DNA from: Longimicrobium sp.
GTDB taxonomy: Bacteria > Gemmatimonadota > Gemmatimonadetes > Longimicrobiales > Longimicrobiaceae
Length of the DNA: 38,691 nt
Assembly (NCBI GenBank): GCA_036389795.1
Contig: DASVWD010000215.1
Span: 1-38,691, forward strand
Direction: 5' to 3'
The position numbers and the translations under genes are program-made. The notes beneath the pieces were generated by a model. That model was given only the letters and a program-made list of their open reading frames with translations, did not search any database and was not told the origin of the DNA. Shown here one piece after another: positions 2,498-28,926 of the stretch (position 1 is the stretch's first letter; every line of letters starts with the position of its first letter).

Positions 2498-3058
2498 TCA
2501 CCGGCCGACGCCGAATGCGGCGCGGACATCCGGCGCGGGCCACGGTAGCGGCTGCCTCCGCGCTGCATAGGCCTCCTCCACCGCGCGGAGCACCTCCGCC
2601 GCAGCGAGGGTGCGCTGCGGCTCCGGAAGCGACCTCACGAGGTATCGCAGGGCGGCGATCTCGCCACCTCCGTCGGACGCCGCCGGGTCGTTCGCGCACA
2701 CATGCCAGAACCAGGTCTCGAGCTTGCGCCGGGTTTCGGCCTGAGGCGCTCGTACCTCACCCTGGATGAGCTGCCTCAGCGTATCCGGGCTCACTCCCAC
2801 CGTGCGGGCGGCGGCGCGTAGACCCAGCGCTTCGACCCGCGACTCCACGAAAACCCGAAGATCCACGGTCGGAACTCTCGGGGCTACCGCATCCGTGTCG
2901 CGCGTGGGATCAGCCACCGTTCGAGGCCCGGTACCGGGTGGCGCTCGCATCGAATCGCTGCCGCCACCGTTTGCAGCTCTCGCCGGGACCACCATCCGCG
3001 GCAGCAGGCTCGCGTCCGCACCAGGGGCAATCACATGGTCGTTGCTTCTTTCGATCAT
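2498..3058 (-). CDS. Helix-turn-helix protein, distant SPTGL-family member
   Basis: The 186-residue frame has a low-complexity N-terminal 60 residues, then a clear HTH region (LRAAARTVGVSPDTLRQLIQ, about residues 78-97). This matches the RTSLR...VGMSPTGLRGVIDG region of paralog A in order. The C-terminal helical part includes ALRYLVRSLPEPQR and a final PAPDVRAAFG. The start is uncertain: the ATG at 3058 sits against an AGGGG run, and an internal ATG at 2950 would remove most of the unstructured N-terminus. It follows the HNH-like gene by 24 bp and is probably in the same operon. DNA binding is inferred. Confidence 0.65.
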   Translation of the reverse strand: MIERSNDHVIAPGADASLLPRMVVPARAANGGGSDSMRAPPGTGPRTVADPTRDTDAVAPRVPTVDLRVFVESRVEALGLRAAARTVGVSPDTLRQLIQGEVRAPQAETRRKLETWFWHVCANDPAASDGGGEIAALRYLVRSLPEPQRTLAAAEVLRAVEEAYAARRQPLPWPAPDVRAAFGVGR

Positions 3059-3082: not shown

Positions 3083-4090
3083 TCATTGTGGACCTCCTCC
3101 ATTTAGGGCCGAGCGCTCCATCAAGGCTTTGATCCGATGATCCGCCAGCACGCGGCCGACGATCCACCAGGTGTAGAGCCAGGTGGAGTCCTGCGGCACG
3201 CGCGCCTGGTAAGCCGCGAACGACTCGTGTTCGCGGACGGCCACCGGAAGCGGCGCCCCGATCACCCACGGCTCGAGCTGCTGCTGCAGGACCCGCAGGC
3301 GGTCAGCCAGTGAAGCCCTCGTGGCACGCCGGATGATCCGCTCGACCTCCGCCTCGTGGGGGTCCGGCGGCAGGGGCGGGCGGCCCGATGTGGCCGGCTT
3401 CAGGCGCGCATAGGACCGGTTTCGCTCCCGCAAGCACGTCTTGCACAGCCGTGTGCGGATCCTGACCCGCACTCCATCTCGAACCTCCCACCCGGGGTTC
3501 CACGCGGTGTTCTCGGGGGTGAACTCATGGCCCCGCAGGCAGTGGGTCCGGGGCGTGTGCTTCCGCGTCCTGCCCATCTCCCGGGCCAGGCGCCTCGCGG
3601 CCGACGGGTCCAGCGCCGCGAGGTCGAACGGGCTGACGCACCGCTCGTTTCCGCACGTCGTCGTGACGACGCGGCCTGATGGAATCGGACCGCACCACAG
3701 CCGGTACGAGACACGACGCGCCAGCTGTTCACCCAGTGCTTCGAATCTCGGAAATCCCTGGCCGCCAGGCGCAGGGTGGTACGACCCGCCCCACTCCCAG
3801 CACCCCGTCTCCGGATCGACCCGCACCCGCGCGGCGATCTTCTGCGCCAGGGTCGGGGGCGACGGCTTCGAGCGGCAGGCTCGCGCGATGCATCGCCGCT
3901 CCGGCGCCCGCTGTACCGACGATCCGGTCCGCTGCTCGAACGCGACGACGAGCTGCCGGACGCGCTCGCGTGAGAGTCCGATGCGCTCACCGACGGTCTT
4001 GTAGGTCTCTTCCTCAGAGGCCGTGTACGCGGCGACGACGGCGGCCTCACGAGCCGGATCGCGGGTGAGTGGCAATCCGGCCACGGTCAC
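3083..4090 (-). CDS. Sigma region-4-like HTH fused to a degenerate HNH-type domain
   Basis: The start is set at a GTG (4090) that overlaps the TGA of the upstream gene as GTGA; an ATG at 4123 would overlap that gene by 37 bp. Of 335 residues, about 28-50 (TYKTVGERIGLSRERVRQLV) match the helix-turn-helix of sigma-70 region 4. Residues about 97-225 resemble the phage/actinobacterial HNH_3-type layout: CWEWGG, TTTCGNERCVSPFDL, HCLRGHEF and CKTC. In typical members the equivalent of TTTCGNERCVSPFDL carries catalytic and metal-binding histidines (an H before CxNxxC and an NPxHL). Here these are T and D, so nuclease activity is doubtful. The zinc-type cysteines (146, 151, 184, 216, 219) remain. A DNA-binding role is more likely than cleavage. 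Confidence 0.7.
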   Translation of the reverse strand: MTVAGLPLTRDPAREAAVVAAYTASEEETYKTVGERIGLSRERVRQLVVAFEQRTGSSVQRAPERRCIARACRSKPSPPTLAQKIAARVRVDPETGCWEWGGSYHPAPGGQGFPRFEALGEQLARRVSYRLWCGPIPSGRVVTTTCGNERCVSPFDLAALDPSAARRLAREMGRTRKHTPRTHCLRGHEFTPENTAWNPGWEVRDGVRVRIRTRLCKTCLRERNRSYARLKPATSGRPPLPPDPHEAEVERIIRRATRASLADRLRVLQQQLEPWVIGAPLPVAVREHESFAAYQARVPQDSTWLYTWWIVGRVLADHRIKALMERSALNGGGPQ

Positions 4091-4885: not shown

Positions 4886-5059
4886 TCACGCCCGCCGTGT
4901 AATTTCCGGGGCCGGTCGGGGAGGACGGGCGCCATCCGATCCCGCACCGCGCGGCCCGATGTTGTGGGTGCCCGGCGGGATCGTGAGGATGTTCCCCCGC
5001 CGGGGAGCGTTCGGCTCTTCGGGAGCCGTCGCCTTCGTTTCGTCGCGACGATCCCCCAT
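4886..5059 (-). CDS. 57-aa proline-rich small protein, translationally coupled
   Basis: The ATG at 5059 overlaps the stop of the upstream HTH-like gene in the ATGA form. The 57-residue product (MGDRRDETKATAPEEP...) has no signal peptide. It contains a central NILTIPPGTHNIGPRGAG element between charged, proline-rich ends. The coupling is the main reason to call it; codon position bias agrees. Function is unknown. It could be a small accessory or toxin/antitoxin-type peptide, but nothing specific supports this. Confidence 0.5.
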   Translation of the reverse strand: MGDRRDETKATAPEEPNAPRRGNILTIPPGTHNIGPRGAGSDGARPPRPAPEITRRA

Positions 5060-5469
5060 CAGGGCTCCTCTCGCCGCGTGTCGTCCTGGTGCGCCGTAAG
5101 CGCGCGCACCCGCTCCTGGAGCTCGTGGATGTACCTGCGGAGCGGCGGCGGGAGCGCCGCGATGTTGACCTCCGTAGGACGCCAATCGGCGTATCCGCTG
5201 GAGGGATCGTCGTCGGCTTCCAGCATTTCCTCGTACGCGTCGAGCGCGCCGGGGAGCGGGATCGTGCGGCGGCGAACGAAGGCCTTCACCGCAGCCATGC
5301 CGAGCCCGGTGCGGGCCGCGACGGCCGCCGGCCCCAGCAGCTCCACCCAGCGGGCGACGTGCGGACGGAGCCGGGCGGCGCGCACTTCGCGCGGCTCGGG
5401 TTCGTCCGGCGCGTTCGCGCGCGGCGGGAGCGGGATCGCCCGGCGCGTATCGCTGGGAGGGCGCGGCAT
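5059..5469 (-). CDS. Small HTH-like protein, 136 aa
   Basis: The basic N-terminus (MPRPPSDTRRAIPLPPR) leads into a probable helix-turn-helix (LLGPAAVAARTGLGMAAVKA, about residues 44-63), an acidic linker and a C-terminal helix (PPLRRYIHELQERVRALTA). Its ATG overlaps the stop of the 40-aa exported peptide gene upstream and its stop overlaps the ATG of the 57-aa gene downstream, both as ATGA. It sits in a strictly coupled four-gene string that starts with the TPR gene at 6913. The order TPR sensor, exported peptide, HTH protein suggests a signalling unit. DNA binding is inferred. Confidence 0.65.
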   Translation of the reverse strand: MPRPPSDTRRAIPLPPRANAPDEPEPREVRAARLRPHVARWVELLGPAAVAARTGLGMAAVKAFVRRRTIPLPGALDAYEEMLEADDDPSSGYADWRPTEVNIAALPPPLRRYIHELQERVRALTAHQDDTRREEP

Positions 5470-5591
5470 CAGAACGGCGTCCGGCCTCGGCTCGGCTGCA
5501 CATCGACGTCATTTCCCGACTGCACGTCATTGCACGACGGCGTCACCGGCAACACCACGAGCGTAAGGGGTAGCGCGAGGCGACGTTTCAT
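5469..5591 (-). CDS. 40-aa exported peptide coupled to a TPR gene
   Basis: MKRRLALPLTLVVLPVTPSC is a short signal sequence: two Arg, a hydrophobic core, and a TPSC that may act as a weak lipobox. A 20-residue tail with NDVQSGNDVDVQPSRGRTPF follows. The start codon overlaps the TPR stop (ATGA at 5588-5591) and its own stop overlaps the next ATG, so translation is probably reinitiated along the chain. A tiny exported peptide encoded at the end of a TPR gene is the layout of Rap-Phr pairs, in which the processed peptide binds the TPR protein. The comparison is one of layout only; the residues are not Phr-like. Confidence 0.55.
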   Translation of the reverse strand: MKRRLALPLTLVVLPVTPSCNDVQSGNDVDVQPSRGRTPF

Positions 5592-6913
5592 TTCATGACG
5601 CGGGAGCGGAGGCGACGCGGAGTCGGGACTGCAATCCCGGGAACTCCGAATTCTTCGAGCAACGCGGCGGCTTCGACCGCCAACGGCTGCTCCACGCGGC
5701 GGGTCGCGATCGCGAGGGCGCGCCGCGCACTTTCCTGCGCCATGCGCACCTCCGTGACGTCGGCCGCGGCTCGCGCGAGTTTCAGCAGGTACCGTGCGGC
5801 CTCGGGCGTTTCGCCAAGGCGCTGGAGGGCGTCCAAGACATCCAACCACGCCTGCTGGAGAACGGTCTGCTCCCCCGCGCCGCCGGCCGCCTTCACTAGC
5901 AGCGTCAGCGTCTCGATTCGTTCTCCGTGCGGGCGCCTGGTGGGGAGGAGGTTCTGGAGGATGTGCATCGCTGCGAGGCTGTTGTCGCCCCGGCGAAGCA
6001 TCAACTCGGCGAGATCGTGCAGGAGTGCGGGGATGTCCGGATGCTGCTTGCCCAAGGCGCTGAGGGCGGTCTGCGCGTACCGCTCGGCGTCATCGTGGTC
6101 ATCCGCCGCGACAGCGGCCTTGAAGAGACCGTAGTACGCCTGACCGCGCGTGGCCCATAGACTGTGGCGCCGCGCGGCGCGGGTGGCCTTGAGAAAGCAC
6201 GTGCGCGCGCGCGCCACCTGGTCGCGCAAGAGCATCACGCGCCCCAGCTCGACCCAGGCATCTCCGTACGAGGCCCAGTCTCCCGAGCGGCGTCCAAGCG
6301 CGATCGCGCGGCGCAGCCAGTCCTCAGCCAGGGTGAGGCGGCCGAACCCCGCGGTGAGCTGGCCGACCCGCATTGCGACCGACGCGTCGGCGGGGCTCGC
6401 GGCGGCAGCCGCCTGGGCGAACCACACGGCGGTCTGCGGGACCCGGGCCGAGACCGCCCAGTCGGAGAGGCGCTCGCAGCAGTAGGTGACGTGGCTGGCG
6501 TCCTCGACCACGTCGCTGCGCAGGAGACCCGTCAGCAGCTCGACGGCGGCGAGAGCCTCCCCCGCCAGCCCGGCGTGCTTCACCTGCCGCTCGCGCCGGC
6601 TCAGCGCACCGGCTGTGAACAGGCGAGGCCTCTCCTCGGGCTCGGTGCCGGCCCACAGCAACACGTCGCGGTTGATCTGCCAGAGCAGCATGCCCAAGTC
6701 GCTGCGCAGCTCGTCGAGGATCTCCACGCCGTCCATCTGCGCTATGGAGCCCGGCTCGCGAAACAGCACAGGAGGAAGACACCAGCGCTTGCTCGACTTC
6801 CGGTGCGCGGGCCGGAGCTGCTTCCACGCCTCGCCCCTACGGGCACGCCGTGAGCCGTTGTTCCGGTCGGCGCCACTCGGTGGCGCACTTTCCTGATCGC
6901 GTGAGTCGGACAT
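5588..6913 (-). CDS. TPR-repeat protein 1 (Rap-like size), head of a coupled operon
   Basis: The 441-residue protein is almost entirely helical-repeat. A basic, disordered N-terminus (1-45) precedes an alpha-helical domain (EILDELRSDLGMLLWQ, DVLLWAG). From about residue 150 come TPR-type pairs such as AVWFAQAAAAASPADA and CFLKATRAARRHSLWA, with later units at DDAERYAQTALSALG. There is no signal peptide or enzymatic motif, so a cytoplasmic protein- or peptide-binding role is likely. It has the same length and domain order as the TPR genes at 7487-8812 and 9180-10484; DVLLWAG, VRLWAD and VALWAR align near the N-terminus. A 206-bp piece (6279-6484) is duplicated at 10673-10878. The 40-aa peptide gene overlaps its stop codon. 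Confidence 0.8.
   Translation of the reverse strand: MSDSRDQESAPPSGADRNNGSRRARRGEAWKQLRPAHRKSSKRWCLPPVLFREPGSIAQMDGVEILDELRSDLGMLLWQINRDVLLWAGTEPEERPRLFTAGALSRRERQVKHAGLAGEALAAVELLTGLLRSDVVEDASHVTYCCERLSDWAVSARVPQTAVWFAQAAAAASPADASVAMRVGQLTAGFGRLTLAEDWLRRAIALGRRSGDWASYGDAWVELGRVMLLRDQVARARTCFLKATRAARRHSLWATRGQAYYGLFKAAVAADDHDDAERYAQTALSALGKQHPDIPALLHDLAELMLRRGDNSLAAMHILQNLLPTRRPHGERIETLTLLVKAAGGAGEQTVLQQAWLDVLDALQRLGETPEAARYLLKLARAAADVTEVRMAQESARRALAIATRRVEQPLAVEAAALLEEFGVPGIAVPTPRRLRSRVMK
6279..6484. repeat. 206-bp direct repeat, copy 1 (inside TPR gene 1)
   Basis: This segment recurs at 10673-10878 in the same orientation, without gaps and with 8 mismatches by my count (about 96% identity). 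Here it is part of an intact TPR gene; the other copy is not in an intact gene. Confidence 0.9.
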
Positions 6914-6968
6914 TAGCTGATAGTTCGATACGTCTCGGACTTGGCGGCGGCGACGTATAGGCCCTGAA

Positions 6969-7217
6969 TTAAAAACCCCAATCCATTAGGCTGCTGGGTC
7001 GAACGCACACCGTCACATTCGTGGCGTTAAACATCCGCACTGGAATGGTGATCGTAAAGTCTCCCGCTATGACGGCAAAGGCTTCGTCCCGATCTACGAC
7101 ATAAAAGGAGCCGCAATATTTTGCGATAAGAAGAGGGACTTTCGAGAACTGGGGCGGGATAACAAAAAAAGGGGAGTTGTGATCGGCCCTGCGATATGGC
7201 GTGAACCGGAAGCGCAA
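6969..7217 (-). CDS. Possible small protein, 82 aa, TTG start (doubtful)
   Basis: A frame opening with TTG at 7217 reads with a protein-like pattern of alternating hydrophobic residues (KVPLLIAKYCGSFYVV, FAVIAGDFTITIPVRMF), consistent with a beta-rich domain. It lacks a clear ribosome site and lies between divergent and convergent genes in lower-GC DNA. It could be a remnant of a larger gene or chance coding. The region 6914-7277 holds nothing else I can support. Confidence 0.25.
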   Translation of the reverse strand: MRFRFTPYRRADHNSPFFVIPPQFSKVPLLIAKYCGSFYVVDRDEAFAVIAGDFTITIPVRMFNATNVTVCVRPSSLMDWGF

Positions 7218-7277
7218 GTGTATCTTTCTGCCACACCCGTCGCGATTCTGCCTTCGCCGCGTACCTCCGAGGTGACC

Positions 7278-7490
7278 ATGAAGCCCACACGCATTCTCGT
7301 CGCGATTATCGCAGTCTCAGGAGCTGCCCTCGGGTGCAGCGGAACGAATCCAACCGCGACACCTCATGAGGCGCCGCGGTTTGACTCAGGGTACGGAATG
7401 GGTTCGGGAAGTGTTACAGGAGGAACATCTGAGACAACTCAATTTGATTCCGCGAGTCGGAATGGTTACGGCATGGGATCCGGAAGCTAG
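7278..7490 (+). CDS. 70-aa lipoprotein-type peptide with repeated GYGMGSGS motif
   Basis: A GAGGTG ribosome site precedes the ATG at 7278. MKPTRILVAIIAVSGAALGC is a lipoprotein signal peptide with lipobox AALGC (Cys20). The mature part is about 50 residues, hydrophilic, and carries the motif FDSGYGMGSGS followed by a second NGYGMGSGS at the very C-terminus. The TAG stop overlaps the TAG stop of the convergent TPR gene through a CTAG palindrome. The same arrangement occurs for the 59-aa peptide at 9004. The product should be exported, and the short C-terminal motif could be released by proteolysis. A signalling role is inferred from pairing with TPR genes. Confidence 0.7.
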   Translation: MKPTRILVAIIAVSGAALGCSGTNPTATPHEAPRFDSGYGMGSGSVTGGTSETTQFDSASRNGYGMGSGS

Positions 7491-8812
7491 AACTCGACGT
7501 CGGGGGGCGGTCCGTCCTCATGGCGCTTGGTAAAGGTCGGACCACGCCACGCTGTCATTCGTCGCGGTACGTCCGCAAGAAGCTGGAACAACCGGTCCCA
7601 CGGGTAACCGGTTAGGGGTCTTGAGTCGTACTGTGGAACAGTACGCGTAGTACAATCTGACAAAAGCTTAGTTGCATCTCTGGCTTCGGCGGTACCGGCC
7701 ACTGCCCGTGCGGCGCCTTCACGCGCATATATCTCCGCGTGTTCCCACAGACCTAGCGACTGTGCACCAAATGCTAGGTTGTTAAACACGGCACTTCCAT
7801 GTACTGGAAAGCGCGTGATGAAATCGAGCGCTTTACCCATCGCTTCCATATACCGTGCTTTGTCTCCGCCACCAGCGACGGCCCTCGCGTAGGTACTCCA
7901 ACCAAGCGCCTGATCGACGGGAGCGATATTCGCCCGCGTCACCAACTCTAACAACGGCAGCGCTATTTCATACCTGCCCTGGCGAACAAATAGCATTCCA
8001 ATATCGTGAACGACAGCTGGGAAACGCGGGTTATGAACACCGTACCACTCTAGGCAATCGATTGCCGTCTCTGCAGCTTCATTGAAATATCCTAGGTCGG
8101 CCTGTAGCAGAAGGAGATCATGAGCGGTCCGCGCAGCGAGCCAGCGCTCGCCACTCTCCGACTTTGCTGCTCTGGCGGCCGCGTGAAAGTAATCAATTGC
8201 CGCTTGCACTTTACCCTGAGCAGCCCGAATCGTACCAAGCCCGAGGTTGCCTCGCACATACTGCGCCCACTGGGATTTATGCCTCGCAAAGTTGATTGCT
8301 CGCTCGTAGTAAACTTCCGCGCGAGAGGGCTGTCCCAGAAGCCGGTTCGTACGAGCTGCAAAATTTAATGCTCTCGGACTTTGCGGCAGGATAGCGGCAC
8401 ATGCCTCTGCATATTGAAGTGATGTGACCGTTAGCCCCTTACGCCCCGCCCACTTAGCGATCAATCTGCAAGCATCGGCAGCTTCAAAGGCACTCACATA
8501 TTCTTCAGAGTGCAATAATTGATAGAGCGTAGCAAGTGTTTTTCGGATGGCTCGAGGCGTAGCACTCGAGTAGGTGTGCACTTTCCGCACGGTAACGCGG
8601 ATGTAGTCTCTTCGATCGGGAGGAGTATCAGCCCAAAGGCGAACACCGCGTACTCGTAAGAACAACTCTGCAGCGAGCGGACCATCAACGCTCGACGCGA
8701 GCTCCTGAACGAATTCTAGAAAAGACCGCTCGCCCGGAAGAGCAATGGGACGCCTCCAATAGGTCCCACGCTCCAAACGATCCCGCGTCTTGCGCGTGCT
8801 AATGGTCGGCAA
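7487..8812 (-). CDS. TPR-repeat protein 2 (Rap-like size)
   Basis: This is a 441-residue cytoplasmic helical-repeat protein. After a short basic N-terminus and an LWADTPPDRRDYIRV element (shared in position with TPR genes 1 and 3) come TPR-like pairs: TSLQYAEACAAILPQSPRAL, RAEVYYERAINFARHKSQWA, QAAIDYFHAAARAAK and NEAAETAIDCLEWYG. A later unit is LWEHAEIYAREGAARAVAG. No signal peptide, HTH or catalytic motif is visible. Its stop codon overlaps that of the convergent 70-aa lipoprotein gene by 4 nt. Its codon use is clearly less GC-rich than purE or the RiPP cluster, suggesting separate origin. The likely job is binding a peptide or protein partner. Confidence 0.78.
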   Translation of the reverse strand: MPTISTRKTRDRLERGTYWRRPIALPGERSFLEFVQELASSVDGPLAAELFLRVRGVRLWADTPPDRRDYIRVTVRKVHTYSSATPRAIRKTLATLYQLLHSEEYVSAFEAADACRLIAKWAGRKGLTVTSLQYAEACAAILPQSPRALNFAARTNRLLGQPSRAEVYYERAINFARHKSQWAQYVRGNLGLGTIRAAQGKVQAAIDYFHAAARAAKSESGERWLAARTAHDLLLLQADLGYFNEAAETAIDCLEWYGVHNPRFPAVVHDIGMLFVRQGRYEIALPLLELVTRANIAPVDQALGWSTYARAVAGGGDKARYMEAMGKALDFITRFPVHGSAVFNNLAFGAQSLGLWEHAEIYAREGAARAVAGTAEARDATKLLSDCTTRTVPQYDSRPLTGYPWDRLFQLLADVPRRMTAWRGPTFTKRHEDGPPPDVEF

Positions 8813-9003
8813 CCCCTGGACAATTTGTTACCAGTCGACGAAGCGTACTGGCCCGATAATAACCATGCATATTCCCAGATTTTACCGGCGAACGTGTCCT
8901 CTTTGGATTTAAGCCGGGGTTCGTGGCGTTTCCAGAGCGGTATTATTAGACTGCGGACTGCCGGAATCGGCACAACCTCTTACCCCATCAAGGAGTAGAC
9001 GCC

Positions 9004-9183
9004 ATGAAAACCGCGCGCACTCTGTTCACCACCATGGTTGTGGTGGCAGCCACCGCCGCTTGCTCGGAACATCCGACCAAGACGGAACCCCTAACCACGC
9101 CGAGCGCTCTTTTCGACGGTAGTTCCCCGCCTCCTGACACCACCGGCGGGATGCGCGGCGGATCGTACGGATCAGGTCACTAA
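9004..9183 (+). CDS. 59-aa lipoprotein-type peptide with GGSYGSGH tail
   Basis: An AAGGAG ribosome site stands 9 bases before the ATG. MKTARTLFTTMVVVAATAAC is a lipoprotein signal peptide (Cys20). The mature part is about 40 residues and ends in GGMRGGSYGSGH, similar in character to the GYGMGSGS tail of the 70-aa peptide at 7278. The frame ends in TAA, which overlaps the TAG of the convergent TPR gene (9180-10484) by 4 nt. Signal peptide, Gly/Ser C-terminus and stop-overlap are all repeated in the 7278 pair, which argues that this small gene is real and functionally linked to the TPR gene. Confidence 0.7.
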   Translation: MKTARTLFTTMVVVAATAACSEHPTKTEPLTTPSALFDGSSPPPDTTGGMRGGSYGSGH

Positions 9184-10484
9184 GCCGGTGGGGATTCACC
9201 TGGTGGGCGTCCACGCTTCGGTCCGCTCCACAACCGGAGTTTGATCCGGCACGCCCGCGTTATGGTTTCAATGCGGTTTAAAGCCGGGGGGGGCGTTTCG
9301 GGCACCCCCGGCTCCCTTATCCGCACACGATCTAATAGCTCTAGCGAAGTTCGCTCTACTTCAAACATACGGCGCGCGCGTGCCACCTCAGCAGCGTTTC
9401 TTGCCACGTGTTCGGCAACATCCCAATCTTCTGCCAATTGTGCCGCGTATCCAAGACTCCGCAGAGTTGCAGGGGCGAATTCCGGATACGTTTCCAGCAG
9501 ATCCAAGGCCGTATCTCTCGCTTCGTGATACAAATCCGTGCGATGCGCACCCGCTGCCGCCTGCGCCATGGTTCCCCAAGCGAGCACCGGGTCTTGAGGG
9601 CGCCGCATTGTTTTGATCGCCTGTTGAAGCAGATTGAGAGCGGGAGAATAAAAGGCACAAGCTACGAAGAGATAAGCTACATCGTGCACCAAGAATGGCA
9701 CTAGCGGATGATGGATTGGATAATGATCAAGCGCGTTAAGTGCGTATTGCTCGCCTGCCTTGTATTGCTTTAATTCCGAACAAATCGCGAGCAGGTTATG
9801 TTCCGCCTCACCCGCCATTCGCATATGCCGCTCGTTGTAAGCTGCCCGAGCAGCCTTATCTATTATCCTACGTGCACGATCATACCGTCCCAAGCTGTAC
9901 ATTAGCCATCCGTAGCCAACAAACGCACTAAACTTCTCACCGAAGTCGTTGGCTAGGACTGCTAAGACACGGCCTCGAACATACCATGGGCCAGCACGGG
10001 CGGGCAGACCAGCACGCCGGCACGTACGAGCGGCTAAGTTCGCAAGAGAAGCGTCATTCGACTTCACCAGGGCTGCCGCTTCGGCAAAGTGGGCAGCCGT
10101 CTGCAGGTATGCCCGATCTTCGGCCCACTGGTATACCTGACGGCATGCCTCGGCTACCTCGTCCCGCACAAGATCAACGGGGGTGCGAACTAAATCGCGG
10201 AATCGCTCCAGGGATTCCATAATTTCGGGAATCGCTTTACCAGCGTCCGACCAAAGATCAGCGGGCGGTGGGTGGAACAGGTAAATGCGGTCCCCAGGGT
10301 CGGAGCGCGCCCATAGCGCGACGTCACGCAAGGATTCCCAAAGCGCCAATGCAACTAACCGCTCAGAACACAATTCATCCAAGATCTCGAAATCGCGGCG
10401 CCAACTTGGAATAGGCGGCACGATTTGCCGACGACTGGACCGCCGCGGCCTCCTGAGCGTTGCGCTTGAGCCGTTCGCTGTCAA
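9180..10484 (-). CDS. TPR-repeat protein 3 (Rap-like size)
   Basis: The 434-residue protein matches TPR proteins 1 and 2 in length and order. A basic N-terminus (RRPRRSSRRQIVPP) is followed by FEILDELCSERLVALALW (compare EILDELRSDLGMLLW in protein 1) and VALWARSDPGDRIYLF, then TPR-like helices: YLQTAAHFAEAAALVKSNDA, RYDRARRIIDKAARAA, KAGEQYALNALDHYP and WDVAEHVARNAAEVAR. The only start near the N-terminus is a TTG at 10484, just after an in-frame stop, so the true start is uncertain. It is cytoplasmic with no catalytic motif. It converges on the 59-aa lipoprotein gene with 4-nt stop overlap. Confidence 0.76.
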   Translation of the reverse strand: MTANGSSATLRRPRRSSRRQIVPPIPSWRRDFEILDELCSERLVALALWESLRDVALWARSDPGDRIYLFHPPPADLWSDAGKAIPEIMESLERFRDLVRTPVDLVRDEVAEACRQVYQWAEDRAYLQTAAHFAEAAALVKSNDASLANLAARTCRRAGLPARAGPWYVRGRVLAVLANDFGEKFSAFVGYGWLMYSLGRYDRARRIIDKAARAAYNERHMRMAGEAEHNLLAICSELKQYKAGEQYALNALDHYPIHHPLVPFLVHDVAYLFVACAFYSPALNLLQQAIKTMRRPQDPVLAWGTMAQAAAGAHRTDLYHEARDTALDLLETYPEFAPATLRSLGYAAQLAEDWDVAEHVARNAAEVARARRMFEVERTSLELLDRVRIREPGVPETPPPALNRIETITRACRIKLRLWSGPKRGRPPGESPPA

Positions 10485-10672
10485 CGGGATGTCTCAGGGC
10501 CGAGTGGTTACGATTGGGCGTAACACCCACACGTAAAGTGTACAGACGGACACCCTAAGATATGTAAAAAGGATCATGGCGCTAGAAGAGCGGAGGTGTG
10601 GACGTGACTCTTCGCAGCCCCAAGTAGCCGGGCAGCCGCCCAGGCACTTCCGCAAGAAGCCGCAAGGAGCGA

Positions 10673-10878
10673 TCTCCCGAGCGGCGTCCAAGCGCGATGG
10701 CGCGGCGCAGCCAATCCTCACCCAGGGTGAGGCGGCCGAACCCCGCGGTGAGCTGGCCGACCCGCATTGCGACCGACGCGTCGGCGGGGCTCGCGGCGGC
10801 AGCCGCTTGGGCGAACCACACGGCGGTCCGCGGGGCTCGGGCCGAGACCGCCCAGTCGGAGAAGCGCTCGCAGCAGTA
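10673..10878 (-). pseudogene. 206-bp duplicated fragment of TPR gene 1
   Basis: This is the second copy of 6279-6484, in the same orientation, with 8 mismatches by my count. On the minus strand it still encodes the TPR piece WFAQAAAAASPADASVAMRV and ...FGRLTLGEDWLRR in frame, but the flanks are unrelated to a TPR gene. It is therefore a fragment, not an expressed paralog. It may be a relic of a fourth TPR gene or of a recombination event. The flanks (10485-10672 and 10879-10921) hold no gene I can support. Confidence 0.8.
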
Positions 10879-10921
10879 CCTCCAGCGAGACGTTGTGAGA
10901 AGGCCCGCTCGCGAGAACCGC

Positions 10922-11380
10922 TTATTTTTCGTCAGTACCTCCGATTAAGCCCTGACGAATCTCTGCAACCCACGCGGGAACCTCCACGCCCCCGAACCGG
11001 AACGCCTCCTCGAACCCGTTGAGCACACGTACCTCTGCCCCGCTCCGGGACTGCCCGGGGACACGCCACAGCAGGCGGCGCAGGACTCCCGCAACCGTGC
11101 TGGTGGGAAGATCCCCGTGCACATCGCGGTCGTAGGACGCCAACCAGATTCGCACCTTCTGCTGGGTCTTCACGTATGGGGCAGCTCCGTCGATCAGTCC
11201 CCGTAGACCCGTGGGGGACATGCTCAGTTCGCGTGCCACCCCGCGGAGGGAGGTGCGCTCCACGGCCTCCCTGAGCGCCTCGCGGATTTGTCGAAACTCT
11301 TCGTCTTTCGCAGGCTCCTGCGGTTTCGACGGTTTCTTTTCTTTCTTCACGCTACGCTCGCGGCTGCAGTTCTCGTCCAC
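10922..11380 (-). CDS. Small helix-turn-helix protein, SPTGL family (paralog B)
   Basis: The frame encodes 152 residues from a GTG at 11380, or 142 from a GTG at 11350; neither has a strong ribosome site. A Lys-rich N-terminus precedes the HTH region RTSLRGVARELSMSPTGLRG, then LIDGAAPYVKT and RRLLWRVPGQSRSGAEVRVL, ending with EVPAWVAEIRQGL. It aligns nearly end to end with paralog A at 535-933, which argues that this is a conserved family and not chance. It stands alone, not in an operon, and just beside the duplicated TPR fragment. The role is probably transcriptional; the target is unknown. Confidence 0.8.
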   Translation of the reverse strand: MDENCSRERSVKKEKKPSKPQEPAKDEEFRQIREALREAVERTSLRGVARELSMSPTGLRGLIDGAAPYVKTQQKVRIWLASYDRDVHGDLPTSTVAGVLRRLLWRVPGQSRSGAEVRVLNGFEEAFRFGGVEVPAWVAEIRQGLIGGTDEK

Positions 11381-23075: not shown

Positions 23076-24401
23076 CTATCCTGCCCGTTGTGAGGCCTGC
23101 GCCTGGCGCGGCCGCACCTCGCGCCAGACGGCGCGCGCGGCGCGGGCCAGACCGAGGAGCATGGATCCCAGGCGAACGACGAAGTGATAGGTGAACTTGA
23201 CGGTACCGATCAGCACCAGCGTTCGCCACGACACCGACAGTAGCGCTGAGCCCAGAGCCACCAAGTGGAAGGGTCCCAGCGCCGTCCACACCCCGCGCAG
23301 CGCCGCCGGATAGGTGACCGCCACCGCCATCAGCAGCCGCTGGAAGACGAAGTGGAAGGTGAAGACGAAAAAGGCGAGCCCCACCCCCGAGTACGCGAGC
23401 AGCACGGCGAGCGCCCCGCGCGAGAGGGGGAGCGGCTCCGGCCGCACCCGCCCGCGCCCGAAGAGGCGGAGGAAGACCCAGCGGGGGAGCCCCGCGGTGC
23501 GCGCGTGCAGGTTGGGAATGCCCAGCACGTCCGACATCAGCCAGTACCCGTCCATCTTGAAGAACGGGTTCAGCGAACTGGCGATGGCCAGGTCGGTGGC
23601 CAGGAACACGTACAGCGGCACCGCCGACCCCGTGGACGCGAAGACGCCCAGGAGCGCCGCGGCGAAGAGTGCCTGGAAGTAGATGCCCCCCACGTCGATC
23701 AGCGCGCGCTGCTTCCGGGGCAGCCGCCAGGCCTCGGAGAGGTCGGTGTAGAGGACGGTCATGTAGTAGTACATCCCCCACCCGATCTCCAGCCGGCGGC
23801 ACCCGAGCCACGCCGCCGCCGCCGCGTGCCCCAGCTCGTGCAGGAAGGTGCTGGCCACCATCAACCCCAGGATGGCCCCGAAGCGCGGCCCCCGCACCTG
23901 CTGGAACCCCAGCCCGTGCTCCGGCGCCAGCTTCAGCCAAAAGAGGAGGTGCGCGGCGGCGATCAGCACCAGGCCGGCGGCGAACGCCGGACGCGAGAAC
24001 GTCCACCCAACCAAACGGGCCAGCGGGGTGACCACCGACGGCGGGAGGAGCCGCATCCGGAGCGTCAGATACGACAGCCGATCTGCCTTCTTTGCGGGGA
24101 GCGGCGCCGCCTCCGCGCCCACCGGCGCCAGGATGCCGCGGGGGACCAGAAAGCCGTCCACCAGCTTGTGGACGTCCGCCGCAGAGAGGCCGCCGCGCGC
24201 CTCAGCGGCTCGCGCCACCTCGTCGGTCGCGCGCGTGCCATCGAACTCGCGCAGCAACGCCGCCAGCCGGGTGGGGACCACGAAGCGCGCCGCGGAGCCA
24301 TCCACGCGCGGCACCTCGCACAGCGTCTGCGGCTCCACGCCCGCGCCATCGAACGGGCAGGTCTGGATCGCGGTGTTGAAGCGGAGGAGAGTCGAGCTCA
24401 T
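23076..24401 (-). CDS. M50-family membrane metalloprotease with N-terminal PqqD-like domain
   Basis: The start is the ATG at 24401, preceded by GGAAGGA. In 441 residues, about 40-95 form a PqqD-like winged-helix region (VVPTRLAALLREFDGTRATD, ending in a short helix and LVPRGIL), the type that binds RiPP leader peptides. Residues 140-430 are a polytopic membrane domain with zinc motif HELGH (188-192) and downstream NPFFKMDGYW (278-287, Asp284 the third ligand). Both motifs are intact, so proteolysis inside or at the membrane is expected. It follows the precursor gene by 225 bp. Its likely job is to cut the leader or couple cleavage with export. YydH- and daptide-type clusters also contain membrane proteases, but this is not a proven homolog. 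Confidence 0.88.
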   Translation of the reverse strand: MSSTLLRFNTAIQTCPFDGAGVEPQTLCEVPRVDGSAARFVVPTRLAALLREFDGTRATDEVARAAEARGGLSAADVHKLVDGFLVPRGILAPVGAEAAPLPAKKADRLSYLTLRMRLLPPSVVTPLARLVGWTFSRPAFAAGLVLIAAAHLLFWLKLAPEHGLGFQQVRGPRFGAILGLMVASTFLHELGHAAAAAWLGCRRLEIGWGMYYYMTVLYTDLSEAWRLPRKQRALIDVGGIYFQALFAAALLGVFASTGSAVPLYVFLATDLAIASSLNPFFKMDGYWLMSDVLGIPNLHARTAGLPRWVFLRLFGRGRVRPEPLPLSRGALAVLLAYSGVGLAFFVFTFHFVFQRLLMAVAVTYPAALRGVWTALGPFHLVALGSALLSVSWRTLVLIGTVKFTYHFVVRLGSMLLGLARAARAVWREVRPRQAQASQRAG

Positions 24402-24626
24402 CGTCCTTCCCTGAATGTCCGGCATCCTTCCGTCGAGATGCCGTGGTGCCGGGTGAGCGGCTTCCACGGAAGAACCCTCACGCAGCGAGAGGAGAGCGCC
24501 TGCGGGGGCGCCCACCGGGCGGGTTCGCGGTCCGGGGCGGATGCGCGGCGTCCGGTCTCGGCGGTGCCACGCATCGGCCACGGAGTCGCACCGGGAGCGT
24601 AGCGTGTCGGCTCCCAGGCATCGGTC

Positions 24627-24842
24627 TTAGATCTGGGTCGCGCTGAGGCCGGCGCTGGGTTCGAGGCTGCCGCCGCCGCCGCCGCCGCTGGTGCAATAGG
24701 CGTTGGTCGTGGGGCCGGAGGGGCTGCAGGTGGTGTTGGTCCCGCCGGTGGTGCAGCCGCAGTTGTCGTCGCAGAGCTCGGCGAACTCGAGGCGGTCCTC
24801 GAGTTCCAGGATCGAGAACTCCGCAGTCAGCTTCTGGTCCAT
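24627..24842 (-). CDS. RiPP precursor peptide, 71 aa, five Cys and a Gly6 run
   Basis: A GGAGTGA ribosome site precedes the ATG. The leader part (1-22) is acidic and helical (FSILELEDRLEFAE, residues 9-22). The core begins near residue 23: LCDDNCGCTTGG with Cys24, Cys28 and Cys30, then Cys39 and Cys50, many Thr/Ser/Asn/Gly, followed by six Gly (53-58) and the tail SLEPSAGLSATQI. Small size, an acidic hydrophobic leader, a Cys/Gly/Ser/Thr-rich core and placement between maturase and protease genes make it the likely substrate. The Cys residues could take thioether bonds from the radical SAM enzyme; Ser/Thr could be dehydrated, but no dehydratase is seen. Lipidation at a nucleophile is proposed from the neighbours. 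No known precursor family was recognised. Confidence 0.85.
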   Translation of the reverse strand: MDQKLTAEFSILELEDRLEFAELCDDNCGCTTGGTNTTCSPSGPTTNAYCTSGGGGGGSLEPSAGLSATQI

Positions 24843-24943
24843 TGTGTCACTCCGAGGTTGATGGGTGGGATGGTGGATTGCCGAGACCGGGACTGCAAAG
24901 GGTGCAAGGACGAACTTCGTCCTGTTGCATTGAAGGCCCTGCT

Positions 24944-26239
24944 TCAGTCGCTCTCACGGAGGAGCCCGTGGGCCTGCAGTCGCGCCAGCACGTCGAGCGT
25001 GGGGCCGCGCTCCCCGGCCGGAAGGTCTTCGACGGCGGCCCGGTCGAGCCCCCGCTCCGTCTCGAGGGGGCGGAGGAGCTCCGCCGCCTCCGGAGGGAGC
25101 GGGAAGGCACGCAGCGTCCGCGCGTCCACCAGCGCCGCCCCTGCCCGGCCGTCAAGCCGCACGCAGCGGCCCACGTCCAGGCGGAAGGCGGCACCCGAGC
25201 CGAGCCGGCGCTCCACGGCCACCGGGTCCGGCGGACCTTCCACGGGCGGCGCCACCCCGGCCAGCCGCCAGCGGTGCAGGAAGCGGACGTCCTGCCACTC
25301 GGCCGGGTCCCCCGCCACGTGCTCCGCGAAGAAGTCGTACAGCGCCTGCATGGTGCGGTGGACGTGCTCGGCCGCGTCTTCGCCAGGGGGCGGGGGGAGG
25401 ATCGGGACGCCGCACGCCACCCGCCCCGGGTGCGGCCCGTCGGGGAGTGCGGCCACGGGGAGGATCGCCGCGCCGTTGGCGGCGGCCAGGCGCGCTGCAC
25501 CGGTCATCACCCGCAGTTCCATCCCTAGGAAGCGCACCGCGCAATGCGAGAGCACCGCCTCGCCTCCTCCCCAGCCGCGGTTGCCGTCCACGTTCAGGTA
25601 GGCCGCGCCCCCGCCGCGCAGAGCGCGCACCAGGGTGACCAGCCCGGCGGGGTCGTCGATCCGCGCCACCTTCAGCCCGTGCAGACCGGACGCCCCGTTC
25701 CCGCCGCGGCGGTTCTCCTCCACGGTGCGGGTGTCCACCGCGAAGGTGAGCGGGAGACCCAGGTGACAGAGGTCGGTGGGGACGAAGCGGTACGAGCCGA
25801 AGTGGAAGCCGCACACCAGCACCCCGCGCCCGTCCGCACGCAGCGCCTCCAGCGGCGCCTCGTCCCACCCTCTCAGCACCGGACCATTTCCTCCCGGGCC
25901 CGCATCACCGTTCCCCGCGCCGATGCGGCGCAGCGCGGCGTCGTGGTAGCGCATGTTGTGCTGCCACCCGCGCCATAGCCGGTTGCGCGCGCACTGCGCC
26001 GCCACGCTGCGCACCTGCTCCGCCGGCCACCTCTCGCCGAAGAGCGACGTAAGGTTCAGCAGGCACGCCTGATAGCCGAAGGGGACCAGCCCCTCACCAT
26101 TCAGCCGCTGGATGGCGGTGTGCACCTCGTCGGGCTCGCCGCACAGCTCGCCCAGGTAGCGGGCCACCCGCCGTCGGAGCATGTCCTGCCCCTCCGCGCG
26201 ACCCTGGGGGGGAGCGGCAGTCACGGCGGTCACCGCCAT
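24944..26239 (-). CDS. LPLAT/HtrB-like acyltransferase with C-terminal PqqD-like domain
   Basis: The start chosen is the ATG at 26239, 24 bp after the radical SAM stop; the upstream open frame is the shadow of that gene. In 431 residues the order is: N-terminal helical region (1-110), LPLAT-like acyltransferase core (130-320) and PqqD-like winged helix (350-431, FRLDVGRCVRLDGRAGAALV ... LARLQAHGLLRE). Core hallmarks: GVLVCGFHFGSYRFVP, AAYLNVDGNRGWGGGEAVLS and AARLAAANGAAILPVAAL, as in LpxL/HtrB. The catalytic HX4E box is altered: His146 is present but the acid position is Arg151 (HFGSYR). The fused PqqD-like domain should dock on the precursor leader, so the acyl group may be put on the peptide. 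It is the most unusual protein in the window. Alternative: a non-catalytic carrier or scaffold. Confidence 0.85.
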   Translation of the reverse strand: MAVTAVTAAPPQGRAEGQDMLRRRVARYLGELCGEPDEVHTAIQRLNGEGLVPFGYQACLLNLTSLFGERWPAEQVRSVAAQCARNRLWRGWQHNMRYHDAALRRIGAGNGDAGPGGNGPVLRGWDEAPLEALRADGRGVLVCGFHFGSYRFVPTDLCHLGLPLTFAVDTRTVEENRRGGNGASGLHGLKVARIDDPAGLVTLVRALRGGGAAYLNVDGNRGWGGGEAVLSHCAVRFLGMELRVMTGAARLAAANGAAILPVAALPDGPHPGRVACGVPILPPPPGEDAAEHVHRTMQALYDFFAEHVAGDPAEWQDVRFLHRWRLAGVAPPVEGPPDPVAVERRLGSGAAFRLDVGRCVRLDGRAGAALVDARTLRAFPLPPEAAELLRPLETERGLDRAAVEDLPAGERGPTLDVLARLQAHGLLRESD

Positions 26240-26262
26240 CTTCCAGTCGGCCGCACCGCGCG

Positions 26263-27747
26263 CTAGACGGCGGCGGGGATGTTGGGGTCCACCCGAGTGC
26301 CGTCCTTGAGCACCCGGGTGGGGTGAATGCGCTGCTTTCCGGCTTCGTACGTCTCCAGGAGCGCCGTGTGCAGCGCGCGCTTGATGGGCGGGCAGGGGCG
26401 GTTGCCGCTCTCGATGCGCTCCATCGGACAGTGCATTCCCTGGCAGACCGGCACCATGTAGCACTTGGCGCAGCCGCTGTCGTTCTCGAACGCCGGCTCC
26501 GTCCATAGGCTCATCTTGTCCAGGTCCAGGTTCAGCTCGCCGTCCGGCGTGAGCTGGCCCACCACGTTGTAGTCCTTCTTGTCGAGCGCCACCGTGCACT
26601 TCATCACCTTCCCTGTGGCGCCGATCAGGAAGTTGTAGGGGCGGGCGGCATAGCAGACGCCGTTGCCCGGGCGCGACATCGACCCGATCCCGCGCGTCTC
26701 GAAGCCCTGCTCGATGGCCGTGCGGTTCATCTCGCCGCGGACCTTCTTCTCCTCGTCGAGCCCGCAGGTGGAGAGGTTCTGATCATTGTCGCCGCCCCAC
26801 TTCCCCACCGCGTGGAAAGACAGGTGGTAGCGCGGGTCGCCGCCGAACTCCTCCCCGATCATCCGCACGAACTCGGGGAGTGCGGGGGCGTTTTCCCGGT
26901 CGTAGTTCACGCGCAGCGTCACGCGGAACTGATCCGGGCGGGCCTTGAGCGCCTGCAGGTTGGCGAAGATGGTGTCGAAGGTGCCGCTCCCGTCGCGGCC
27001 CACCCGCTTCTTGTTGTGGTACTGCGCGGGCCCGTCCAGGGTGATCTGGAAGTCGCGGATCCCCCACCCCAGCAGCTTGCCGGCGGTCTCAGGGGTCAGC
27101 AGGTACCCGTTGGTGGTCATGTGGCACCCGAAACCCAGCCCGTTCTCACGCGCCGTCTCCTGGAGGAAGGGAGCCAGGTCCTCCACCGCCTCCATTCCGT
27201 ACAGCGGCTCGCCGCCGAAATAGCTGACGGAGAGTTCCTTCAGCCGCGGAGCGCGCTTCCGCACCAGCGCCTTGACGGCCTCGCGTGTCTCCGGCGTCAT
27301 GGTGCCGCGGGCGAAGTCCTCGTAGCAGTACACGCAGCGGAAGTTGCAGTCCTCGCTGGTCATCAGAATCAGCGACAGGATGTCGGTACGGTACTGCTGT
27401 TTCCCGAAAGCGAACTGCAGGCGCTGGCGCTCGTTGGTGCCCCTGCTCACGAGGTAGCCGCGCTTGTGCAGGTACTCCACCATGCCCTCCAGCTTCGCCG
27501 TGATCCCCTGCTGGACCAGGAGCCGTTCCACCGTCTCGACCTGTTCCGGCTCGAATACAGTGATCTTCCCCGAGAAGGTATTCCACATCACCAGGCGGCC
27601 GTCGGGCGAAGTGGTGCGGGTGTTGTAGCGCGAGGGAACGAACTGGCGCCTCCCGGTCGGCAACGGCGGGATCTGGACCAACTGCTTGGGCTTGCAGGGC
27701 GACGCGTCCAGCGGCGACTGCCGCATGATGTCGGGAGTGCCGATCAT
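26263..27747 (-). CDS. Radical SAM/SPASM peptide maturase with N-terminal PqqD-like domain
   Basis: This 494-residue enzyme has an N-terminal PqqD-like region (about 45-105, WNTFSGKITVFEPEQVETVE then LEGMVEYLHKRGYLV). The radical SAM core has CNFRCVYC (Cys134, Cys138, Cys141 bind the cluster) and YFGGEPL (176-182). A C-terminal SPASM domain has Cys365, Cys384, Cys426, Cys429, Cys435, Cys440 and Cys452 for two auxiliary clusters (CAKCYMVPVCQGMHC). All are intact. Such enzymes form thioether (sactipeptide/ranthipeptide) or C-C crosslinks in RiPPs; the precursor has five Cys, so thioether formation is a natural guess. Start: MIGTPDIM with GAGG upstream. A 7-bp inverted repeat lies about 100 bp upstream. 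Confidence 0.95.
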   Translation of the reverse strand: MIGTPDIMRQSPLDASPCKPKQLVQIPPLPTGRRQFVPSRYNTRTTSPDGRLVMWNTFSGKITVFEPEQVETVERLLVQQGITAKLEGMVEYLHKRGYLVSRGTNERQRLQFAFGKQQYRTDILSLILMTSEDCNFRCVYCYEDFARGTMTPETREAVKALVRKRAPRLKELSVSYFGGEPLYGMEAVEDLAPFLQETARENGLGFGCHMTTNGYLLTPETAGKLLGWGIRDFQITLDGPAQYHNKKRVGRDGSGTFDTIFANLQALKARPDQFRVTLRVNYDRENAPALPEFVRMIGEEFGGDPRYHLSFHAVGKWGGDNDQNLSTCGLDEEKKVRGEMNRTAIEQGFETRGIGSMSRPGNGVCYAARPYNFLIGATGKVMKCTVALDKKDYNVVGQLTPDGELNLDLDKMSLWTEPAFENDSGCAKCYMVPVCQGMHCPMERIESGNRPCPPIKRALHTALLETYEAGKQRIHPTRVLKDGTRVDPNIPAAV

Positions 27748-27850
27748 GAGCTTTGCCTCAACGGCGGGGAGGGGGATGCGGTAACTGCAAAGGCTTTAGA
27801 GCTGCAGCGGCTCACAATATCCGATGGCGTGGCCCTCTACCCCACCGCAT

Positions 27851-27880
27851 TTCGACGCATGACTAGAGCAATTCGTCGAA
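27851..27880. promoter_or_regulatory. Candidate operator: inverted repeat TTCGACG-N16-CGTCGAA
   Basis: Two exact 7-bp arms (27851-27857 and 27874-27880) are 16 bp apart, centre to centre 23 bp or about two helical turns. They lie in the 306-bp gap between the AraC-like regulator and the radical SAM gene, about 100 bp upstream of the latter. There is no T-run, so it is not a terminator. The AraC-like protein encoded just upstream is the natural candidate to bind. The rest of 27748-28053 holds nothing else I can support. Confidence 0.45.
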
Positions 27881-28053
27881 TCGTGTCCTGATTCGTGCGT
27901 CAGCTAAGGTTGGCGACTTCATGGAACGGGGAACGAGAAGCGGCCCATGGGGGAATACAGGCCTCCTCGGTCGCACCCCGATGGATGGCTCAGGCCGCTG
28001 ACGACCGCGCGGTTCAGAGTTGAACGCGTTGGATGGGGCTCGAACCGGCCCGC

Positions 28054-28926
28054 TCACGCTCTGGCGACGATCCCCAGCTCTTCTTCGTACACCCTGCCAC
28101 GCGCGTCGGCGAGCTCCGTGTCAGTGCTTGTCTGCTCCACCCCGTGCGCGACTGACGACTCGCAGTCCGTCCGCAGGAGGTGGGTGCGGGCGAACACGTG
28201 CAGTCGCGCCGTAATCAGTCTCCCCTCCTCCGCCGGGGTGTAACCAGCCCTGTGCACGAGTCGCTTGGTCAAACGACGGAGCGTATGCTCGTGGACACCC
28301 AGTTCGACCGCTACCTCGGCGGTGCGGCGCCCAGCCAACCTGCGGCGGCTCGCGTGCAGCAGCAGCACCAGCCCGAGGAAATCCACCAGCCGCAGGCTGG
28401 GGCCCGGACCCGCCGTCTTGCGCCACTGCAGGCACAACGTGGTGCGGTCGCAGTGCACGCTCGCCGCCAACTCGGCCACGGAATAGACCGGGCGATGCGC
28501 CAAGCAGGCGTGCATCAGGGCCGTACGCAGCGAGCGGGGAAGGTGCTGCGCCTCGCCCAACAGTTCCCCCAATGCGTGCAGCGAACTGCACGCACTGGCG
28601 CGCTGCACCGCGTCGGCAAGTGCAGTGTCCGCGTTGGCCAACCACACCACCTCCTCCACCATCAGCGAGCACAGATGGCGCGCGTTCTCCATGCACCCGC
28701 GGGTGGCCAGCACAATGGGGTGACAGGGGAATCGCCTACGGAAGCGGCGCAGCTGCGCCACGTCCTCACCCTCGTGGAGCCACTCGATGCGCACCACCGA
28801 GCAGAGTGCCTGCGGCGCTCGCCGCTCGAACTCGCGCCAGTCGTGCACGAGGCAGCGCTCGGGGAGCGGGCCCGCCGCGAGATATCGTTCGAGGCGCGGA
28901 GAGTCTTTCTCGAAGACGAGGATCAT
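28054..28926 (-). CDS. AraC-type transcriptional regulator (probable cluster regulator)
   Basis: In 290 residues, the first 110 (MILVFEKDSPRLERYL... VRIEWLHEGEDVAQLRR, then HPIVLATRGCMENARHL) resemble a degenerate receiver-like or effector domain without a clear phosphorylatable Asp. Residues 148-170 (SVAELAASVHCDRTTLCLQW) and 203-225 (AEVAVELGVHEHTLRRL) form the two helix-turn-helix units of an AraC family DNA-binding domain. It is on the same strand as, and just upstream of, the radical SAM gene, separated by a gap with an inverted repeat. It probably controls the RiPP cluster. The family call rests on the paired HTH pattern. Confidence 0.75.
   Translation of the reverse strand: MILVFEKDSPRLERYLAAGPLPERCLVHDWREFERRAPQALCSVVRIEWLHEGEDVAQLRRFRRRFPCHPIVLATRGCMENARHLCSLMVEEVVWLANADTALADAVQRASACSSLHALGELLGEAQHLPRSLRTALMHACLAHRPVYSVAELAASVHCDRTTLCLQWRKTAGPGPSLRLVDFLGLVLLLHASRRRLAGRRTAEVAVELGVHEHTLRRLTKRLVHRAGYTPAEEGRLITARLHVFARTHLLRTDCESSVAHGVEQTSTDTELADARGRVYEEELGIVARA

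Follow-up and report, generated by a model that had tools for sequence, protein, structure and literature searches.

In the Rap-Phr systems of Bacillus, a receptor built of tetratricopeptide repeats (TPRs) is encoded beside a small exported precursor peptide, and the two genes are co-directional. Here we compare with these systems three consecutive, mutually related TPR genes, all on the minus strand, and the small open reading frames (ORFs) at their 3' ends (pairs 1 to 3, Table 1). They lie in a 38,691-nucleotide stretch of Longimicrobium sp. DNA that we call the window, which is contig C215 of a 7.5-Mb source genome (G000) from the phylum Gemmatimonadota. Members of this phylum have a Gram-negative-type envelope. 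Our analysis suggests, with a probability of about 0.72, that in each convergent pair of this kind one gene encodes a secreted peptide signal and the other the TPR receptor for it, i.e., that Rap-Phr-like signaling operates in a Gram-negative-type phylum.

In the parts of the literature consulted, TPR receptors that sense peptides inside the cell are described in Bacillota and the mobile elements of that phylum, and the structural phylogeny of the RRNPPA family concerns Bacillota (PMC12700828). Among Phr precursors, Phr-phi3T and Phr-phi105 carry repeated pheromones according to the accessible part of another report (PMC11343458), and complexes of Rap proteins with Spo0F and ComA are named in the titles of structures 3q15 and 3ulq. 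The pairs described here resemble Rap-Phr in that Rap is among the folds closest to the TPR receptor, a small exported precursor is encoded beside the receptor, a short unit occurs once or several times, and the likely partner is response regulator-like. They differ in belonging to another phylum, in lacking a sequence-level match to Rap, in their convergent order, in having a lipoprotein-type precursor, and in having the partner regulator in the same locus, fused to an AraC domain; the sequence families, lipoprotein precursors, gene order, and linked regulator all appear to be new relative to Rap-Phr.

A convergent peptide gene downstream of the receptor gene is also found in the group III Rgg/SHP systems of streptococci, as described in the available part of one paper (PMC3679016); there, however, Rgg is itself a transcriptional regulator, and the SHPs are short hydrophobic peptides. 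Most of the Gemmatimonadota pairs fall within the size and spacing limits of RRNPP_detector (receptor of 250 to 500 amino acids, precursor of 10 to 100 amino acids, -60 to 400 bp), whereas its survey, in the part of the paper available, covered complete genomes of Firmicutes and viruses only (PMC10075063). Two traits of RRNPP systems bear differently on these loci: a small exported precursor beside the receptor is present by sequence (signal peptide and lipobox), but the loci come from Gemmatimonadota rather than from Bacillota and their mobile elements. No published account of peptide signaling in Gemmatimonadota was found in the open-license PubMed Central literature, judged by titles and the beginnings of abstracts.

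Conservation of a convergent small gene at the TPR genes

Relatives of the TPR proteins occur in at least 110 of 395 genomes, with four candidates scored per genome and generic TPR proteins included. Loci fetched from relatives gave 138 distinct TPR genes with scores of 150 bits or more, and for 133 of them the 3' flank was at least 300 nt long. Since 80 further regions were taken by descending score from a part of the matches, the 133-gene set leans toward higher scores, and the loci in all counts include many orthologues and so are not independent. The flanks were scanned from -60 to +400 nt relative to the TPR stop for ORFs with a hydrophobic segment, a positively charged N-region, and a lipobox. 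The hydrophobicity cutoff was 1.7 for Longimicrobiales and 1.6 and 1.5 for two other families of the class Gemmatimonadetes (f5 and f4), and shuffles are quoted at the matching cutoff.

A convergent signal peptide/lipobox ORF was present at 97 of the 133 Longimicrobiales TPR genes, compared with 27 of 2,660 dinucleotide-shuffled flanks (1.0%). Such ORFs were infrequent at other positions: 4/133 in the co-directional downstream position and 3/128 and 9/128 upstream on the two strands. Four loci (L011, L136, L143, and L150) were then dropped because they hold a longer, unrelated lipoprotein, which left 93 precursors. On a tree of the 138 TPR proteins, in which these four loci are still labeled as ORF bearing, ORF presence requires 14 changes, relative to 32 in shuffles. 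Window TPR proteins 2 and 3 fall among ORF-bearing relatives, and TPR protein 1 falls among relatives without true precursors. An earlier note had named homologous TPR genes without small neighbor ORFs as grounds for refutation; this applies in part, as 36 of the 133 have no such ORF, and many of the 36 cluster in the tree. Pairs 2 and 3 are genuine members of a large family whose pairing, as a class, recurs far beyond chance.

The arrangement is abundant within the source genome itself, where the pair 3 TPR protein matched 20 places, 16 of which have a small ORF of lipoprotein type converging on the 3' end of the TPR gene; the four that do not are on C7, C100, and C179 (12 kb) and window TPR 1. 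A first scan of this genome had found related C termini among the small convergent lipoprotein-type ORFs beside most of its TPR genes.

The same arrangement extends to the two other families, for which 99 (f5) and 81 (f4) genomes were searched; f5 was searched because a distant TPR match, L050, carried VDFVNPN repeats. In f5, a convergent precursor was found at 26 of 29 TPR loci with an ATG start and, when any start codon was allowed, at 27 of 29, the latter relative to 9 of 580 shuffles (L179, where no gene was called, was left out of the 29). In f4, the proportion was 28 of 30 loci (one of the ORFs, at L223, has just 25 residues), relative to 22 of 600 shuffles.

Other arrangements were also seen. 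Three of the dropped loci (L136, L143, and L150) encode a conserved lipoprotein of ~180 to 190 amino acids convergent to TPR genes of a precursor-less clade. L013 has two similar tandem precursor genes (2810-2950 and 3335-3475) behind one TPR gene, with the ends GGWLGSGH and GNWMGSDH. As for a mobile origin, the pair 2 TPR protein had no match in plasmids, and a relative (L067) had none in phage records.

Repeated units and a linked AraC-type regulator

The precursor genes look real by several measures. A ribosome-binding-site-like motif precedes 71 of the 93 Longimicrobiales precursors, compared with 5 of 93 after shuffling, and the ratio of nonsynonymous to synonymous substitution rates (dN/dS) is <0.5 in most close precursor pairs and at or above 1 in a few, as under purifying selection. 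All precursors retain the Sec/lipobox region. Beyond it, a short unit of ~7 to 9 residues stands at the precursor end or is repeated, in one to six copies; in most precursors this unit is Gly rich and ends in GSGx, and 51 of the 76 precursors with a strict unit stop one residue past GSG. At the position six residues before GSG, Arg (0.16 versus 0.04) and Asp (0.24 versus 0.07) are enriched, which is no more than a hint of a cleavage site.

Exact repeated 7-mers were detected in 13 of the 93 precursors and in none of 1,860 residue shuffles, and 7-mers repeated with at least 6/7 identities were detected in 18 of 93, relative to 0.38% of the 1,860 shuffles. The precursor of L126, for example, holds four tandem copies of NQGTYGPKV. 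In the 19 precursors with at least two strict units, copies within a precursor had identities of 0.47 (three variable positions) and 0.62 (last position), compared with 0.23 and 0.16, respectively, between precursors; none of 5,000 permutations reached the within-precursor values. The strict pattern was picked after a looser one, which also counted linker Gly runs, had given 0.21 within versus 0.23 between. Units that agree inside one precursor but diverge from one precursor to the next are the mark of multicopy pheromone precursors. In f5, an exact repeated 7-mer is present in 14 of 26 precursors (8 of the 14, L168 to L175, are close orthologues), compared with 0 of 1,300 shuffles. The f5 units include FVNPNV (four copies, plus relatives), DYVNPLG (four), GGSQPWY (three), APTLPW (four), RRPTIPW (three), and ATEVVPWF (two), and some f4 precursors have doubled units, such as NWQGSGT. 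Unit sequences change completely between families.

Precursors of the same type also lie away from family TPR genes in the source genome. One follows another TPR protein gene and has a histidine kinase gene nearby (L258, 4447-4716), one has several GSG units and is near histidine kinase genes (L259, 4125-4436), and two tandem precursors are located between BTAD regulators (L260, 3322-3501 and 3834-4019).

An AraC-type regulator gene is often found downstream of the TPR gene, on the same strand and beyond the precursor; where present, it always has this placement. This neighbor is present in 49 of the 125 Longimicrobiales loci with enough flank, 28 of 29 f5 loci, and 25 of 30 f4 loci. Since the AraC and precursor starts are 79 to 139 nt apart in 36 loci, the two genes share a short divergent intergenic region. 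The regulator combines an HTH_18 domain with a predicted (beta-alpha)5 receiver-like N-terminal domain, and for the one protein modeled, the top Foldseek rows were the response regulators NarL, FixJ, and RcsB (E of about 1e-4). A complete receiver phosphorylation pocket consists of an acidic pair, an Asp, a Thr or Ser, and a Lys. Across the aligned AraC proteins (49 Longimicrobiales, 28 f5, and 25 f4 rows), this pocket is incomplete: the beta-3 Asp is present in 41 of 49, 9 of 28, and 24 of 25 rows, respectively; in Longimicrobiales, no Lys is conserved where beta 5 ends, and the Thr/Ser site is usually Ala; and at the acidic pair, the alignment is largely gapped in f5 and gapped in part in f4.

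A GAATGGG DNA block lies upstream of the precursors of one clade (9/93). We dropped it as a candidate AraC operator and make no claim for it; its other strand resembles the AraC gene's own promoter. In L005, L083, L029, L063, and their relatives, a conserved block in the precursor-AraC intergenic region resembles a promoter on the AraC strand (GCCCATTCT, followed by TATAATTCC) and lies immediately ahead of the AraC start.

Receptor fold, proposed pathway, and alternatives

An AlphaFold2 model of the pair 2 TPR protein was obtained with a predicted local distance difference test score (pLDDT) of 85.6 and a predicted template modeling score (pTM) of 0.83. Its best structural alignments were to LGN (Z of 21.3; root mean square deviation [rmsd], 4.9), RapI (Z of 21.1; rmsd, 3.1; 259 residues aligned), and RapH-Spo0F (Z of 21.0; rmsd, 3.5), with Rap pLS20, RapF, MalT, and NprR among the further rows listed. 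In a plain Foldseek search, the top ranks went to designed and eukaryotic TPR proteins, and NprR came at rank 42. Given that LGN, RapI, and RapH are tied and that MalT is similar, the fold feature is not specific to Rap; the modeled fold is compatible with a Rap-like receptor without singling Rap out. A sequence search of solved structures gave 102 matches with E values up to 0.1; the 60 listed were generic TPR proteins, with no Rap among them.

Under the proposed pathway, the small gene would yield a Sec-exported lipoprotein-type precursor, from which proteases would free the short unit (GYGMGSGS in pair 2 and GGSYGSGH in pair 3). The peptide would then reenter the cytoplasm, plausibly via an oligopeptide permease, and bind the cytoplasmic TPR protein, which would in turn make a regulator more or less active; in what is probably the ancestral layout, this regulator would be the receiver-like AraC protein encoded just beyond the peptide gene. 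In Longimicrobiaceae, the pair has expanded into numerous paralogues whose units differ and which are probably parallel channels. This reading rests on comparative sequence evidence (the conserved pairing and orientation, the signal peptide and lipobox, the repeated units, the purifying selection, and the linked AraC gene), from which we infer export, processing, uptake, binding, and output. We also favor, albeit with less assurance, the broader proposal that Gemmatimonadota have a peptide communication of their own, with multicopy lipoprotein-type pheromone precursors, Rap-like TPR receptors in the cytoplasm, and output through the linked receiver-like AraC regulator. It would comprise ~16 parallel channels per Longimicrobiaceae cell, with precursors also beside BTAD regulators, another TPR protein, and histidine kinases.

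Several observations weigh against signal-receptor pairing. A lipid-anchored precursor in a two-membrane cell would require extra release and uptake steps, and 36 of the 133 Longimicrobiales TPR genes are without a convergent precursor-type ORF. Receptor identity and unit identity are weakly correlated overall (Spearman, 0.11), being jointly high only for near-identical receptors, and none of the window's three TPR genes has an AraC neighbor within the flank. The tie between Rap and the eukaryotic TPR protein LGN points to shared architecture, not function, and the TPR proteins match no known receptor subfamily in Pfam or NCBIfam, giving generic TPR matches, sub-cutoff matches, or none (HMMER filters may lose very weak matches). 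Finally, the source genome has five SBP_bac_5 (OppA-type) genes, but such genes are also present in 11 of 14 control genomes, and these proteins do not discriminate because most bacteria have them.

Of the alternatives, the one we take most seriously, while still considering it unlikely, is that the small peptides are exported effectors, similar to bacteriocins or to ribosomally synthesized and posttranslationally modified peptides, that the TPR and AraC proteins regulate or neutralize. Small exported precursors with Gly-rich C termini and many divergent paralogues would fit this explanation, as would a radical S-adenosylmethionine (SAM) gene in the same window, about 16 kb off. However, no modification enzyme or dedicated transporter stood out among the listed neighbor clusters (flanks mostly of 1.3 to 1.5 kb, with partial annotation); the recurring 3'-side neighbor is instead the AraC gene, with a small helix-turn-helix (HTH) gene upstream in some loci, and tandem 7-residue units suit a signal better than a bacteriocin. 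Less probable still is sensing of the not yet exported precursor by the TPR protein within the cell, in which case the pair would keep watch on the synthesis or export of lipoproteins and not on other cells. The Sec/lipobox region kept by every precursor is consistent with such sensing, and the converging receptor and precursor genes would allow antisense effects, but the part that varies and is repeated is the C-terminal unit rather than the signal peptide, and its copies are alike within precursors.

We give slightly less weight again to a role of the small lipoproteins as ordinary envelope proteins, adjoining TPR genes by happenstance. The longer unrelated lipoproteins at the same place in the four dropped loci speak for it, as do the precursors that are not beside a family TPR gene, whereas the recurrence of this layout across three branches of the class, with units that change completely between families, speaks against it. 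Chance occurrence of ORFs in GC-rich DNA probably accounts for the 40-residue ORF of pair 1, but as an explanation of the family's small ORFs it is already refuted by the shuffle controls, ribosome-binding sites, dN/dS values, and repeats, and we consider it next to impossible.

If the signal-receptor reading is correct, these pairs would be the first RRNPP-like system outside Gram-positive bacteria within the literature searched, and the logic of TPR peptide signaling would be older or would have arisen more than once. It would also raise the question of how a peptide crosses two membranes out and back, and it would supply a set of signal-receptor pairs ready for testing in a common soil phylum whose communication has hardly been studied.

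The window's three TPR genes and neighboring sequence

The six ORFs lie where the earlier note had placed them, with TPR proteins of 441, 441, and 434 residues and peptides of 40, 70, and 59 residues. We likewise confirmed the 4-nt ATGA overlap of the co-directional pair 1 and the 4 nt shared by the stops of the convergent pairs 2 and 3; as a family hallmark, this stop overlap was rejected, being present at 7 of 97 loci. TPR protein 3 had no Pfam TPR match above the cutoff and is called a TPR protein because of homology and fold, Pfam alone being insufficient.

Table 1. TPR genes, small ORFs, and repeated units in the window
Feature	Position	Strand	Basis or remark
TPR protein 1, 441 aa	5588-6913	minus	paralogue in a clade mostly without such precursors
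40-aa ORF, overlaps TPR 1 stop (ATGA)	5469-5591	minus	probably no precursor of the family
Pair 2 precursor, 70 aa	7278-7490	plus	signal peptide, lipobox ALGC (Cys20), two GYGMGSGS copies
GYGMGSGS copy 1, pair 2 precursor residues 38-45	7389-7412	plus	translation and repeat statistic
GYGMGSGS copy 2, pair 2 precursor residues 63-70, C-terminal	7464-7487	plus	translation and repeat statistic
Pair 2 TPR protein, 441 aa, proposed peptide receptor	7487-8812	minus	homology, AlphaFold2 model, fold comparison
Pair 3 precursor, 59 aa	9004-9183	plus	signal peptide, lipobox TAAC, C-terminal unit GGSYGSGH
Pair 3 TPR protein, 434 aa, proposed peptide receptor	9180-10484	minus	family homology, tree

Signal sequences had been claimed for all three peptides; those of pairs 2 and 3 stand, whereas the pair 1 peptide has only a poor lipobox (TPSC). 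Given also that this peptide lacks a repeat motif, that its co-directional order is atypical for the family, and that the TPR 1 clade is mostly without precursors, it is probably not a precursor of the family, and we rejected pair 1 as a signal pair. The proposal of an undescribed, Rap-Phr-like family with lipoprotein-type peptides has good comparative support for pairs 2 and 3 (conserved convergent partner, repeats, and a fold compatible with Rap) but does not fit pair 1.

Small putative DNA-binding proteins of one type (SLR..AREVGMSPTGL) are encoded in the window at 535-933 and 10922-11380, and perhaps also at 1826-2452, 2498-3058, and 5059-5469 (minus strand); they had no Pfam match above the cutoff. 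In 16 of 138 loci, a relative of this type sits close to the TPR gene, usually upstream and divergent. Farther along the window, at 23076-28926 on the minus strand, radical SAM, lipid A acyltransferase-like, Pfam-unmatched, and HTH proteins are encoded consecutively, a row that might be a peptide modification cluster. Upstream of TPR 3, inspection by eye showed a segment (~10670-10880) that nearly repeats an internal part of TPR gene 1 (~6283-6490) and is probably a remnant of duplication or recombination.

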